Origin: Methanococcoides alaskense
GTDB lineage: Archaea > Halobacteriota > Methanosarcinia > Methanosarcinales > Methanosarcinaceae
Length of the DNA: 64,000 nucleotides
Direction: 5' to 3'
Assembly (NCBI RefSeq): GCF_027594145.1
Contig: NZ_JAQFFK010000001.1
Span: forward strand, 248,001-312,000
Under the pieces are notes generated by a model. The model searched no databases, had not been told where the DNA came from, and saw only the letters and a list, made by a program, of their open reading frames with translations. Each line of letters opens with the position of its first letter. Position 1 is the stretch's first letter. A program made the translations under genes and the position numbers. Below, piece by piece: positions 19,174 through 29,062 of the stretch.

Positions 19174-19632
19174 TTATCTTGTGATCAACATTTCTGCTGT
19201 TTCTGGTTTGTACTTCCAGTCAATAGGGAGTACCTTTGCGGACTGGTAGTATTTGACGAGCCTTCTGATCTTTGATTCAGCTGACTGCAATGATCTCTTG
19301 TTGTGTACATCCTTGTTGTTAACTACAAGGTGTTTACGCAATCCGATAGCCTTTACAATAAGGTTGTAGAGGTCTTCAGGTACGTTTGGTTCCTCGCTGT
19401 TGTCTCTCAGGATTTCTGTTACCTTCTTTCCTGTTGCGAGTTTGACATCAGGTACACCATAGTTGTCTCTGAGTACCATTCCAATAACACTTGTAGATTT
19501 GCCCTGTTTCCAGAGGTCAAGTACTACCTTTGTGATCTCTTCTGTTGTTGTTGTGGACCATGCTGGTGATTCTGATCTGATCGGCCTTGTTGAACCGGAT
19601 TTTCCTTTTGTACGGGTATGCATTTTTGCCAT
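19174..19632 (-). CDS. rps15: 30S ribosomal protein S15 (uS15)
   Basis: A 152-residue archaeal/eukaryal-type S15, longer than the bacterial 89 residues owing to the N-terminal extension. 'MARMH'-like start ([19 protein letters not shown]), '[14 protein letters not shown]' and the conserved C-terminal '[22 protein letters not shown]' are typical. Strong AGGAGG six bases before the ATG. A TATA-like TATATTATTG region precedes it. In many euryarchaea it is followed by recJ-pcc1-rps3ae; here the glm block separates it from recJ. Confidence 0.95.
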
Positions 19633-19788: not shown

Positions 19789-20796
19789 TCACCATATGGA
19801 GAGGGTGATATCAACATATCCTTTATTGACCTTATTATAAATGGACTCTATCTGATCATCCCTGAGTTGTCTGGTCTTATTGATATCACTGGTATTTGCC
19901 ATTTGGTATACTGTGTTATTTATCTCCTCTGCCATGCTGCTTTTTAGGTAGTTCGCAATATTATTTTGGTTGGCTCGGACCATCTCTTGTTCTGTAATTA
20001 TTATTGTGTTGTTGTTGTTGAATTCAAAAGGGTACGCTGTATGGGGTATCATTTGTGCTGATAATAGTGCGGCAACATCGATAGTATTGTTGAAACTATC
20101 ATAATATGTGCCGAATTTAGTTGTGTTCGAGGAGTTGATATATGTCGTGAGGGTCGTGTCGTTAATTGTATCCAGCAAGTAGCTTTTTGATGGTCTGTTA
20201 TTTGTTGGCAGTGTCACCCTTGAACTTTGTTTTACTGCATCTATTGGCGGCTTGATGCCGACCGACATCGAGCTTTTGAGCGGATATCCCTCAACTGGCT
20301 CCCATGTGGTATGAAGTTGGTAGTTATATCGTCCGCCTATTCTTTTGTCAAGGTAGTTGGTGATGGCGATAGTTGTTTGTTCTTTGTGAGGGTCGACTAT
20401 TGGTTCGATCGTTTGTGTGGTACCGCTATCATTGAATGATAGGGTGAGGATCAGATCTTCCGCTATTATTTCTGCAAATGTGCGGTGATTGTGTTGTTTA
20501 TTAAATGGGTTGGCGGATGATCCATTTATCAGGGTGTCTATCAGGCTACTCGTTCCGTTGATGCCGGAATGTTCTGCCTCATAATAAAATTTGTCGATCT
20601 TGGTATTTAGGAGTGAACTTAATATGTGTGCTGTGAGATCCTGTTTTGCAGTATATTCTGCTGAATCGTACTGTCTTTCTGCCATGATGGATGGCATTAG
20701 TATTACTGTTGCAATGGATATCAGTGCAAGGAAGAATATTGCGTCCATTGTGGTCGAGAACGCATGCTGATCATGTATTATGTTCTTTTTTGGCAT
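19789..20796 (-). CDS. Pilin-like membrane-anchored protein D (335 aa)
   Basis: The last gene of four co-directional genes after hisS. The N-terminal 'HDQHAFSTTMDAIFFLALISIATVILM' (residues 8-34, quoted as one motif plus helix) has a short polar leader, a D-Q-x-A motif and one hydrophobic helix, then an approximately 290-residue exported domain rich in Asn/Thr ('TNNRPSK', 'SSNTTKFG', 'NNNNTIIIT'). This is the architecture of archaeal type IV pilin-like or pseudopilin proteins. No known domain is recognised in the exported part. Five bases separate it from the upstream gene. Function inferred from architecture only. Confidence 0.6.
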   Translation of the reverse strand: MPKKNIIHDQHAFSTTMDAIFFLALISIATVILMPSIMAERQYDSAEYTAKQDLTAHILSSLLNTKIDKFYYEAEHSGINGTSSLIDTLINGSSANPFNKQHNHRTFAEIIAEDLILTLSFNDSGTTQTIEPIVDPHKEQTTIAITNYLDKRIGGRYNYQLHTTWEPVEGYPLKSSMSVGIKPPIDAVKQSSRVTLPTNNRPSKSYLLDTINDTTLTTYINSSNTTKFGTYYDSFNNTIDVAALLSAQMIPHTAYPFEFNNNNTIIITEQEMVRANQNNIANYLKSSMAEEINNTVYQMANTSDINKTRQLRDDQIESIYNKVNKGYVDITLSIW

Positions 20797-20800
20797 GTTC

Positions 20801-21298
20801 TCACCATTGATGTCCCCATGTTCGAACAGTCACTGTTCCTGTTATGTGCTGAGCAGGAGTTGTTTCGATGATGATAGGTATTGATGCCGCAATGAGATTA
20901 CCTGTTTCTGGATATTCTTCTTTTTTTATTTCCCAGTGGTATTTTCCGTCATCTGTTCTAATATCTACTGAAAAATGGTTATTCGATGTGAACTTGCCAA
21001 AAAAGCGTTTATGCATCTCTGCATCTGTGATCGGTTCTGCAATAAGGTCTAATTCTTTGGCAGATATTATGTCAGGTCGACTTCCTCTAAGTTCATCCCA
21101 TGAGGCAACACTTTCAGCTATTCTGGATGCTTCTTCATAGTTCTCGATGGAACTGCTTTGCTCATCATATGTTAGGTAGGCTTTTGACATGACTGCGGCA
21201 AAGATCACAAATCCAATGACTACCAATGCGGTTGCAATGATATCGTTATGAGGTTCGAGTATTGCACGCTCGTCACTGATAAACAAGCACAAGTTCAA
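20801..21298 (-). CDS. Pilin-like membrane-anchored protein C (165 aa)
   Basis: N-terminal 'ISDERAILEPHNDIIATALVVIGFV' shows the D-E-x-A motif followed by a hydrophobic helix, like its three neighbours. The ~125-residue exported part ends 'ITGTVTVRTWGHQW'. The only in-frame starts are TTG codons; TTG at 21298 is preceded by AGAGG and overlaps the preceding gene by 26 bases, implying tight coupling. Likely a minor pilin or pseudopilin. No specific family recognised. Confidence 0.6.
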   Translation of the reverse strand: MNLCLFISDERAILEPHNDIIATALVVIGFVIFAAVMSKAYLTYDEQSSSIENYEEASRIAESVASWDELRGSRPDIISAKELDLIAEPITDAEMHKRFFGKFTSNNHFSVDIRTDDGKYHWEIKKEEYPETGNLIAASIPIIIETTPAQHITGTVTVRTWGHQW

Positions 21299-21869
21299 TT
21301 TTATTAACCTCTGTATTGTTTTTTAGATAAATTGGAGTTTTTTCAATATGTACTCTCTTTCCTGTATTTAATATTAATTCTTCTCTTCCTTTGATGGAGA
21401 GTATTTCCAGAACAGTTGCAGCTTTTACATCAATGGTGTGATCTTCGTTTCCGTCATTGCCATTGAAGTTGGTTGCAAGTATGTTTCTCAGGTCTTCCTC
21501 TTTCAATGGAATTGTTTTGAATGTCAGGGGTTTGACCGAGTAGAAGACAATTCCGTTGCGGTTTTTTTCCAGTCGCACATATTCGCCTGTAACTATGGCT
21601 CTGGCTATGTTCTTGTCATTGAATGTGTATGTTGCGTTCTTACGTATGCTGTTCAATGAACTGCTTCCAATGTCATCTATGGCATTTTTAAGTCCGAATG
21701 CTTCTGCATCCAGTTGGTCCTGGGCTTGTAAGTCATTGAAATCTGTTGAAAGCTGGTAGAATGCACTAAGTATCACTATGCTTGCGATCATGAGGGCTGC
21801 TTTCGATAATGTTAGGTCTATCCAGGCATTCTGATCTTTGTGGATGTGGGGGGTCTTGATGTTGGTCAT
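21273..21869 (-). CDS. Pilin-like membrane-anchored protein B (198 aa)
   Basis: N-terminal 'HKDQNAWIDLTLSKAALMIAS' carries the D-Q-x-A motif, then the hydrophobic segment 'ALMIASIVILSAFYQ', a coiled-coil-like stretch ('FNDLQAQDQLDAEAFGLKNAI') and a beta-rich C-terminal domain. It overlaps protein A's gene by 4 bases and protein C's by 26. Architecture of a pseudopilin with a long N-terminal helix. Function unknown beyond membrane anchoring. Confidence 0.6.
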   Translation of the reverse strand: MTNIKTPHIHKDQNAWIDLTLSKAALMIASIVILSAFYQLSTDFNDLQAQDQLDAEAFGLKNAIDDIGSSSLNSIRKNATYTFNDKNIARAIVTGEYVRLEKNRNGIVFYSVKPLTFKTIPLKEEDLRNILATNFNGNDGNEDHTIDVKAATVLEILSIKGREELILNTGKRVHIEKTPIYLKNNTEVNKIELVLVYQ

Positions 21870-22348
21870 GTTTCTGATATTTTGACAAATATTTTGCTGG
21901 TCCGAGTGTCTTTTTGGGTTTCAAGCTTTAGGGTGTGGGGGCCTGAATTTATGGTGTATGGTCCGTCCATGGCGAAATTTGAGAAAAGGGCTTTGGATCT
22001 GTATGTTTTATAACGGCTTCCGGTCTGGATGTAGTAATTGTTGGCGTTGGATGGCCAGAGTGTGTTGTCGGCTAATGTTCCCATGTGCATGGTCACGTCA
22101 TCCGGTATCTCTATGTCTATATATATTGTGGATCCTGCGCCACGGAAATATATCTGCTCTGAGTTAGATATGAGTTTGCCGATCTCTATGAGTGCGATAT
22201 CTTCATTCGCTTTTTCCTTCAGGTCGGCTATTGCGGTAATGGCAAGCCCCATTATCAACAGGACCAGTATGGCTGTTATCGTAAAACGAAGGGGTAGGGA
22301 ATCGTCTGCCCTCTCGTCCTTTGTGAATGTTCTTTTTTTGGGTTGCAT
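21866..22348 (-). CDS. Pilin-like membrane-anchored protein A (160 aa)
   Basis: N-terminal 'TKDERADDSLPLRFTITAIL' carries the D-E-x-A motif; a hydrophobic helix (TAILVLLIMGLAITAIA) follows, then a domain with 'GAGSTIYIDIEIPDDV', about 110 residues, predicted outside the membrane. It starts 7 bases after the hisS stop, so hisS and the four pilin-like genes form one transcription unit. A related archaeal pilin motif is D-x-A-V-S before the helix, which supports processing by an archaeal prepilin peptidase, but the cleavage site is not certain. Confidence 0.6.
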   Translation of the reverse strand: MQPKKRTFTKDERADDSLPLRFTITAILVLLIMGLAITAIADLKEKANEDIALIEIGKLISNSEQIYFRGAGSTIYIDIEIPDDVTMHMGTLADNTLWPSNANNYYIQTGSRYKTYRSKALFSNFAMDGPYTINSGPHTLKLETQKDTRTSKIFVKISET

Positions 22349-22355
22349 TATGTCT

Positions 22356-23591
22356 TTAACTGTTCTTTATTAGTTCAATGGCCTCATCCAGTGTTAGTTG
22401 TGACTGGTCCCCTATTTCCATGTTCTTCACAGTTAGTTTTCCTGACTCTATCTCTTTCTTTCCGACTATGACTGCGTAATCTGCTCCAATGTTGTTGGCA
22501 TGGGATAGTTGTGTTTTGAAGTTGCGCTGCATTATGTCCAGGTAGACAGTCAGTTCCTTCCGCATGCTTGTTGCGACCTTGATGGCATCGGTGCGTGTTT
22601 CATCGGTAGCTATTATTACTACGCTCTTCTGCTTTTCGGGCATTATTTCGCACACTTCCATTATGCGATCGAATCCAAGTCCGAATCCTGTGGATGGTAC
22701 ATCTCCGCCGCCAAATAGTGGGATCAATTGGTATGAGCCTCCACCGCATACCTGATTTTGTGCGCCAAGTCCTTCTGCATATATTTCGAAGACCATTCCG
22801 GTGTAGTAGTCAAGGCCTCTTGCTATGCCAAGGTTGATGGAATAATCGATATCGTATGCGTCGAGGAATATCAGGATCTGTTCGAATTTATCTATTTCTT
22901 CGATGTCCCCTACTATTTCCCTTGCTTTTGCTATTGCATCTGTGCCTGTGACGCAGATAAGCTCCAGTAGGTTTCTTCTAAGCTCTACCGGGATGTTTAT
23001 TTCTTCAAAGTAGTCCTCAAGTCCGGTATCATCCTTTTTGTCTACGAGGCGCATTATCTTGCTTTGTTGGTCGGGTTCGAGCTCTTTGAGCATGTGGCGG
23101 ATTATTCCCAGGTGGCCTACGTGAAGGTCTCCTTTGATGCCTGCTGCGTTGAGCATGGTTGTTGCAAGGGCAATTATCTCGGCATCTGCGTCAGGGCGGT
23201 TGCTGCCTATAACTTCTACGCCGAATTGCCAGAATTCTCGGAACCTTCCTTTTTGTGGTCTTTCGTAACGGAAACAGTTCTCGAAATAGAATAGTTTTTG
23301 TGGTCTTGGGGTTGCCTGCATTTCGTTGACGTACATTCTCATGACCGGCGCGGTAAGTTCAGGACGTAGTGCCATCTTCCTGTCACCTTTGTCACTGAAA
23401 TTATATAGTTCCCCGATAACGCCTTCACCGGATTTGAGGGTGAATAGCTCAAGATTCTCAAAGGTGGGGGTGATAACTTCTTTGTAGTCCCATTTGTTGA
23501 CCACTTGTCTCATTATGTTCTCGACATTTCTCCTGCGAGCGGTCTCTTCTGGTAGGAAGTCCCTTGTTCCCCTTGGTTTGCTAACTTTCAT
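22356..23591 (-). CDS. hisS: Histidyl-tRNA synthetase
   Basis: A 411-residue class II synthetase. It shows '[11 protein letters not shown]' at the N-terminus, motif 2 '[20 protein letters not shown]', HisA-type signatures '[13 protein letters not shown]' and '[13 protein letters not shown]', motif 3 '[10 protein letters not shown]', and a C-terminal anticodon-binding domain. Full length. The start ATG lies about 650 bases from the divergent rRNA operon. It heads an operon with four pilin-like genes, an unusual pairing. Confidence 0.95.
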
Positions 23592-24256: not shown

Positions 24257-25732
<1,476 letters not shown>

Positions 25733-25761
25733 AAGCAAGATCCGCACAAAGCGGATCACCG

Positions 25762-25797
25762 CTATCAGTCAGAAATCGATAAACTGCCAAATTCAAC
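25762..25797 (+). ncRNA. 3' half of the 16S rRNA processing stem (bulge-helix-bulge)
   Basis: Partner of 24094-24129. See that entry for base pairing. It lies 29 bases after the 16S 3' end. Confidence 0.9.
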
Positions 25798-25910
25798 AAA
25801 CCACATTCAATGATTCACAATCATCAAGTGCACCAGGCAAGTAATGTTGCCCGGGAAGGATGGAAGTGCCTGATACCCCATATCAGGTACGATGAGATCA
25901 TGTATAAATA
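25798..25910 (+). other. 16S-23S spacer, no tRNA gene seen
   Basis: Holds two small hairpins (GGCAA ... TTGCC near 25837-25852 and a pairing between TGATAC at 25871-25876 and TATCAG-like 25881-25886) but no cloverleaf, anticodon arm or T-arm sequence. Many euryarchaea carry tRNA-Ala here. Confidence 0.5.
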
Positions 25911-25942
25911 TTACATATCAGACGCTCACTGGACAAAGTGAG
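25908..25942 (+). ncRNA. 5' half of the 23S rRNA processing stem (bulge-helix-bulge)
   Basis: Pairs with 28870-28904. Outer helix 25908-25922, central helix CGCT (25923-25926) with GGCG (28883-28886), bulges CAC (25927-25929) and ATA (28887-28889), inner helix 25930-25942 with one G-T pair. Confidence 0.88.
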
Positions 25943-25945
25943 ATG

Positions 25946-28862
<2,917 letters not shown>

Positions 28863-28869
28863 CATCCGT

Positions 28870-28904
28870 CTCGCTTTGTCCAGGCGATATCTGATATGTA
28901 ATAT
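28870..28904 (+). ncRNA. 3' half of the 23S rRNA processing stem (bulge-helix-bulge)
   Basis: Partner of 25908-25942; see that entry. Confidence 0.88.
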
Positions 28905-28936
28905 GATCTACATGATCACAATCCGTTAATTTGAAT

Positions 28937-29062
28937 GAGTATGGCGGCCATAGCGGTAGGGCCACTCCTGTTCCCATCCGAACACAGAAGATAAGTCTAC
29001 CCACGTTGTTTACTGTACTGAAGTACGAGAGTCTTCGGGAAATCTACATCGCTGCTATACTC
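28937..29062 (+). rRNA. rrf: 5S ribosomal RNA
   Basis: Terminal helix GAGTATGGCGGC (28937-28948) pairs over 12 positions with GCTGCTATACTC (29051-29062). Internal TTCCCATCCGAACACAGAAG is the conserved loop of 5S. A pyrimidine-rich run (29063-29090) follows and probably terminates the operon. No tRNA gene lies downstream. Confidence 0.95.

Follow-up and report, generated by a model that had tools for sequence, protein, structure and literature searches.

The window analysed here is a stretch of 64,000 nucleotides of the Methanococcoides alaskense genome, in which four genes lie on the minus strand at 19789-22348, between the gene for histidine--tRNA ligase (hisS) and an rpsO-like gene. We refer to the four genes as g4, g3, g2 and g1, and to the group as the cassette. 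The genes and the predicted parts of their products are listed below.

hisS, 22356..23591, minus strand: histidine--tRNA ligase (TIGR00442, E 7.7e-120); upstream neighbour, outside the pilus system
g4, 21866..22348, minus strand: 160 aa, ATG start; predicted minor pilin, DUF7311-like; leader MQPKKRTFTKDERA, then helix DDSLPLRFTITAILVLLIM, then an all-beta head
g3, 21273..21869, minus strand: 198 aa, ATG start; predicted minor pilin, positional counterpart of DUF7283; leader MTNIKTPHIHKDQNA, then helix WIDLTLSKAALMIASIVI
g2, 20801..21298, minus strand: 165 aa, TTG start; predicted minor pilin, remote DUF7285; leader MNLCLFISDERA, then helix ILEPHNDIIATALVVIGFVIFAAV
g1, 19789..20796, minus strand: 335 aa, ATG start; predicted minor pilin, DUF7284; leader MPKKNIIHDQHA, helix FSTTMDAIFFLALISIATVILMP, and an alpha/beta head with a helical block ahead of its last strand
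rpsO-like gene, 19174..19632, minus strand: named by eye from its N-terminus; downstream neighbour, outside the pilus system

All four open reading frames are present as given in the preliminary description of this DNA, as is their tight packing: g4 starts 7 bp downstream of hisS, g3 overlaps g4 by 4 bp, g2 overlaps g3 by 26 bp, and g1 begins 4 bp past the end of g2. The relatives have ATG at the place of the TTG start of g2, and g2 is 99% identical to its counterpart in the Methanococcoides MAG SMBSF15. The g1 protein has 335 aa in the sub-lineage of the window, versus about 390-430 aa in other Methanosarcinaceae, with a stretch absent from the middle of the protein. Searches of NCBIfam and PHROGs with the four proteins gave no useful matches, and a viral origin is unsupported, as the search gave no viral relatives. 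On the plus strand, divergent from hisS, the window also contains a complete archaeal rRNA operon (SSU, LSU and 5S) at 24257-29060, and ARAGORN detects no tRNA genes in the whole 64 kb.

Each of the four proteins has a leader of 12-15 residues that ends in D-[EQ]-x-A directly ahead of the hydrophobic helix, and the motifs first read from the translations, KDERA, KDQNA, SDERA and HDQHA, were all confirmed. Prepilin peptidase requires Ala or Gly before the cut site. When 100 distinct homologues of g1-g4 were aligned by the residues downstream of the motif, position -1 to the predicted cut was Ala in 68 and Gly in 32, and therefore one or the other in 100 of 100, although these homologues are mutually related and do not represent 100 independent trials. 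With two exceptions, position -4 holds D or N, whereas position -2 is free to vary. All 27 homologues of g3 have Ala or Gly at -1. At the level of sequence, a fixed Ala or Gly at -1 combined with a variable -2 is the pattern expected from prepilin peptidase. Haloarchaeal homologues of g2 read DRG before the cut and Q-x-EP after it (DRG/QxEP), which is near the classical class III signal of archaea. As a control for chance, we scanned related Methanosarcinales loci for the motif in other genes of 120 aa or more; of these 548 genes, 93 have an N-terminal hydrophobic stretch. Only two carry D[EQ]x[AG] ahead of the hydrophobic stretch and both are members of the pilus system, one a g3 homologue that the family search had missed and the other a putative major pilin. 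The background in unrelated genes is therefore 0 of 546, which rules out a chance origin of the motif. Together, the invariant -1 residue and the control scan bear out the earlier claim of a prepilin pattern before the helix. Some haloarchaeal homologues (DUF7283 and DUF7311) seem to have no leader, and archaea place class III signals on non-pilin proteins too (PMC2910488).

The exported domains had been described as unrelated to known families and to each other. The first part of this statement does not hold. The g1 protein belongs to Pfam DUF7284 (PF23955; E 2.7e-12, 47.6 bits against a curated cut-off of 27), and profile-profile comparison (hhalign in local mode) matches it to haloarchaeal DUF7284 at 98.8%. 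By the same comparison, g2 and g4 are remotely related to haloarchaeal DUF7285 (96%) and DUF7311 (96.5%), respectively. The match of g3 to DUF7283 is weak (18%), its position in the operon being the same. As to the second part, the N-terminal halves of g3 and g4 may share a weak relationship (hhalign 48%). A PDB sequence search with g1 returned no matches, and we found nothing relevant in the literature on DUF7284, DUF7285 or a link between hisS and pilins.

In haloarchaea, the homologues form an operon in the order DUF7310-DUF7311-PilB-TadC-DUF7283-DUF7285-DUF7284-DUF7286, in which DUF7310 is a coiled coil and PilB is a Cys-rich ATPase. All seven genes that we searched for are present in 18 of 22 haloarchaeal loci and some of the seven in the remaining four; for TadC, the profile comparison covered four loci. 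With PilB and TadC taken out, the haloarchaeal order is exactly that of g4-g3-g2-g1 plus DUF7286, the correspondence of g3 being one of position only. Linkage of cassette homologues to PilB and TadC is thus seen in the haloarchaeal operons, and homology to this pilus operon supports the role in a surface structure that had been proposed for the four genes. The arrangement in Methanosarcinaceae differs in that PilB-TadC lies outside the group, leaving the four genes alone between hisS and rpsO, while DUF7286 with a sarcinarray gene is kept at another place and the coiled coil with two pilins at yet another. An intermediate arrangement is found in the four genomes of a family (f14) that we take to be probably Methanocella-like. 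Here the four genes are followed by DUF7286, and in the three loci that reach far enough the coiled-coil gene lies divergently beside the cassette.

Among the methanogens there is a PilB ATPase whose N-terminal domain is Cys-rich, with TadC beside it. This PilB and the haloarchaeal PilB form one clade (support 100/100) that is separate from other pilus ATPases and from the archaellum ATPase, the haloarchaeal part having long branches, and the methanogen and haloarchaeal TadC sets match by profile at 100%, so that both proteins are orthologous in the two groups. In the window's genome, two pilin-like genes of the type 'DERA-x-x-LPI' (hereafter LPI) are found at G000:C1:618.4-619.4k with a coiled-coil gene beside them (whole locus G000:C1:617.9-619.4k). 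These putative major pilins bear Ig-like beta domains. Homologues of the LPI pilins adjoin PilB-TadC in f14 genomes, and both the coiled-coil gene and the putative major pilin of the window's genome have homologues in that family that adjoin PilB or the cassette. The DUF7286 protein is large, at about 1000-1380 aa, and a sarcinarray/MAST-domain gene comes next after it in the relative G001 and in an f14 genome (L241:6115-10856 and L111:10241-13986). The C-terminal part of DUF7286 is multicopy in some genomes (G029, G044 and G056), and in G013 (L048:1158-10474) DUF7286 and a small partner lie divergently beside hisS and the cassette.

The preliminary description looked to a pilus ATPase and TadC elsewhere in the genome. 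Close relatives do have them; in the window's own assembly, which is 76.6% complete, neither the Cys-rich PilB with its TadC nor a prepilin peptidase was found. This genome has two other PilB/TadC loci (on C5) and an archaellum locus (on C3), the ATPases of which fall outside the Cys-rich clade. Prepilin peptidase is present in 13 of 13 relatives tested, and in G001 and G002 it lies 11-13 kb from the Cys-rich PilB. When the 11-kb PilB region of G002 was searched against the window's assembly, the one match was a paralogue (72% identical) of a single neighbour gene, and uppS is also absent. Because the whole G002-type 11-kb block is missing, uppS included, the result points to an assembly gap, though it does not prove one, and given the distance between peptidase and PilB in G001 and G002, one such gap could account for the missing PilB/TadC and the missing peptidase alike.

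In 59 further genomes from the order, the cassette co-occurs with the Cys-rich PilB without exception: 30 genomes have both and 29 have neither. 'Present' in this count includes decayed copies; PilB of G022 is counted from its ATPase domain alone, at a contig end, that of G009 from a 68-residue N-terminal match alone, in a broken remnant that likewise lies at the end of a contig. Among the negatives, G024 has a completeness of only 83%. Both states are found inside five genera (g2, g4, g6, g7 and g19 in our genus numbering), and the pattern therefore does not reflect one ancestral split. The other proposed parts follow nearly the same distribution. The LPI pilins and the coiled-coil gene are found in 28 of the 30 cassette genomes, the exceptions being G005 and G009, with G013 retaining short fragments only; among the 29 negatives the sole matches are a 60-residue fragment of an LPI pilin in G016 and a weak, probably chance, coiled-coil match in G028. 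DUF7286 is found in 24 of 30 cassette genomes and in none of the 29 negatives.

In several close relatives, the cassette and the motor decay together. In G005, a member of the same genus assembled as one contig, a deletion extends from within g4 into g1. PilB of this genome is disrupted by a stop and a change of frame, its TadC is spread across three frames, and the locus for the pilins and the coiled coil has been lost. In G009, g4 and g2 both contain frame changes, g3 has a TAG close to its end, PilB is broken, and the pilins and coiled coil are missing as well. A single frame change in g2 and another in PilB of G008 could also be assembly errors, and G002 has an interruption in its second LPI pilin. 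DUF7286 was not found in any of the five genomes of the sub-lineage. Together with the mid-protein shortening of g1, these lesions would suit the view that the cassette in the window's lineage is a relic heading for loss that no longer builds a pilus. However, the four open reading frames of the window are intact, with dN/dS values against G002 of 0.23 for g1, 0.03 for g2, 0.54 for g3 and 0.25 for g4, and the genome of the window also retains intact genes for the pilins and the coiled coil. We therefore consider a relic unlikely; from these sequences, the sub-lineage seems to be losing the pilus system while the four genes of the window are still intact. Two in-frame TAG codons occur in otherwise intact frames, at codon 378 of hisS in G005 (L036:9714-10946) and at codon 187 of g3 in G009 (L216:2405-2998), and possibly represent pyrrolysine read-through, sequencing error or real damage.

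Structural models are available for two of the exported domains. AlphaFold2 models, built from alignments of the named loci, give g4 a helix at residues 17-69 (53 residues) followed by a head of seven strands (mean pLDDT 85.6); g1 is given a helix at residues 10-63 (54 residues) and an alpha/beta head with a helical block placed ahead of its last strand (mean pLDDT 75). In both models, the predicted layout, a long N-terminal helix with an outer domain, is that of a pilin. Foldseek searches of the PDB with the g4 and g1 models found no significant match of any kind, so the modelled fold is backed by no solved pilin head. Pilin heads vary, and a head like that of a solved pilin is usual, not required.

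The short distance to hisS had been taken as a sign that translation machinery and a surface structure are co-expressed. The order hisS-g4-g3-g2-g1-rpsO is seen in 27 named Methanosarcinaceae loci (from Methanococcoides, Methanolobus, Methanomethylovorans and one ANME-3 genome), two contigs ending before g1, and from the spacing hisS and the cassette are likely to be co-transcribed in this family. A functional link, in which synthesis of the pilus proteins is tied to tRNA charging so that translation and surface structure are co-regulated, could draw on this identical gene order and on the 7-bp spacing. However, hisS and rpsO persist without the cassette in G014, G026, G027 and G028, where rpsO follows hisS directly, roughly 140-260 bp on, and the cassette persists away from hisS both in other families (intact, L053-L058) and, as homologues, in haloarchaea. 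Given the empty sites and the cassettes elsewhere, the adjacency is probably incidental, positional rather than functional. We rejected functional coupling to hisS on the empty-site evidence and regard it as highly improbable.

Given the conservation of the motif, the homology to the haloarchaeal operon, the co-occurrence and joint decay with the motor and the helix-head models, we consider it very probable that g4, g3, g2 and g1 encode minor pilins (pseudopilins) of a single archaeal type IV pilus system, the parts of which are dispersed over at least four loci in Methanosarcinales. In such a system, the N-terminal helix would insert each of the four proteins in the membrane and an A24-family prepilin peptidase would remove the charged leader of 12-15 residues after D-[EQ]-x-A/G. 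The freed helices would then pack in the core of a filament or in a complex at its base or tip. Assembly of the filament from the LPI major pilins would be the work of the Cys-rich PilB ATPase on its TadC platform, and the four differing heads may cap, prime or decorate the filament.

Two other readings of the four proteins have to be weighed against minor pilins. They could be ordinary membrane proteins that span the membrane once, keep their N-terminal anchors uncleaved and have nothing to do with pilus assembly, which would suit heads without solved relatives and the haloarchaeal DUF7283 and DUF7311 proteins without obvious leaders. It is hard to see why such anchors would keep Ala or Gly at -1 without exception while -2 varies, share a haloarchaeal operon with PilB-TadC and co-occur exactly with the Cys-rich PilB, and we give this reading very little credence. 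Alternatively, g1-g4 and PilB/TadC could form a membrane-bound complex resembling a pseudopilus, for secretion or, in the manner of a bindosome, to hold binding proteins at the surface, with no extended pilus. The same machinery would be needed, the large DUF7286 and, in methanogens, the sarcinarray/MAST surface protein travel with the system, and the bindosome protein BasE is among the weak family matches of the Cys-rich PilB. However, the BasE match is far under its cut-off, and the two putative major pilins with Ig-like domains, which travel with the cassette and resemble those beside PilB in f14, suit a filament. A complex without a filament is therefore doubtful, if less so than ordinary membrane anchors. 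Within the minor-pilin reading, we put forward tentatively, as a possibility well below even chances, that the four minor pilins, DUF7286 and the sarcinarray/MAST protein constitute a specialised device of a little-studied pilus, at its tip or for contact with cells. If so, this device would belong to a pilus gained or lost as a whole in methanogens, in haloarchaea and in at least one archaeon of the ANME-3 group.

Pilus systems of this kind are already known. Clade 4F of the archaeal type IV pili has an ATPase with a Cys-rich N-terminal domain, a halobacterial coiled-coil component, PilA-family major pilins that are mostly stand-alone and tandem, a Methanocella locus and an S-layer-like protein (Makarova, Koonin and Albers 2016, PMC4858521). 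The system described here is alike in each of these features and, matched by descriptions alone, fits clade 4F; g1-g4 may already be listed in the supplementary tables of that study. The PilA/PilB3-C3 adhesion pili and the archaella of Haloferax volcanii are also similar, with class III signals, a PilB/TadC-type motor, a shared prepilin peptidase and pilins encoded apart from the motor. In contrast, the other-type ATPases of the window's genome (C5 and C3) lie outside the Cys-rich PilB clade. As far as we have searched, the hisS-linked arrangement without a motor and the assignment of these genes are new.

With this assignment, four unannotated genes and the Pfam families DUF7283, DUF7284, DUF7285, DUF7286, DUF7310 and DUF7311 can be named as candidate parts of a single archaeal pilus system. 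It also suggests that minor pilins can sit hidden in a cluster of unrelated genes, remote from the motor. The result is a concrete list of parts that is testable in culturable Methanococcoides, Methanolobus or haloarchaea, and the cassette is also carried by one ANME-3 genome.
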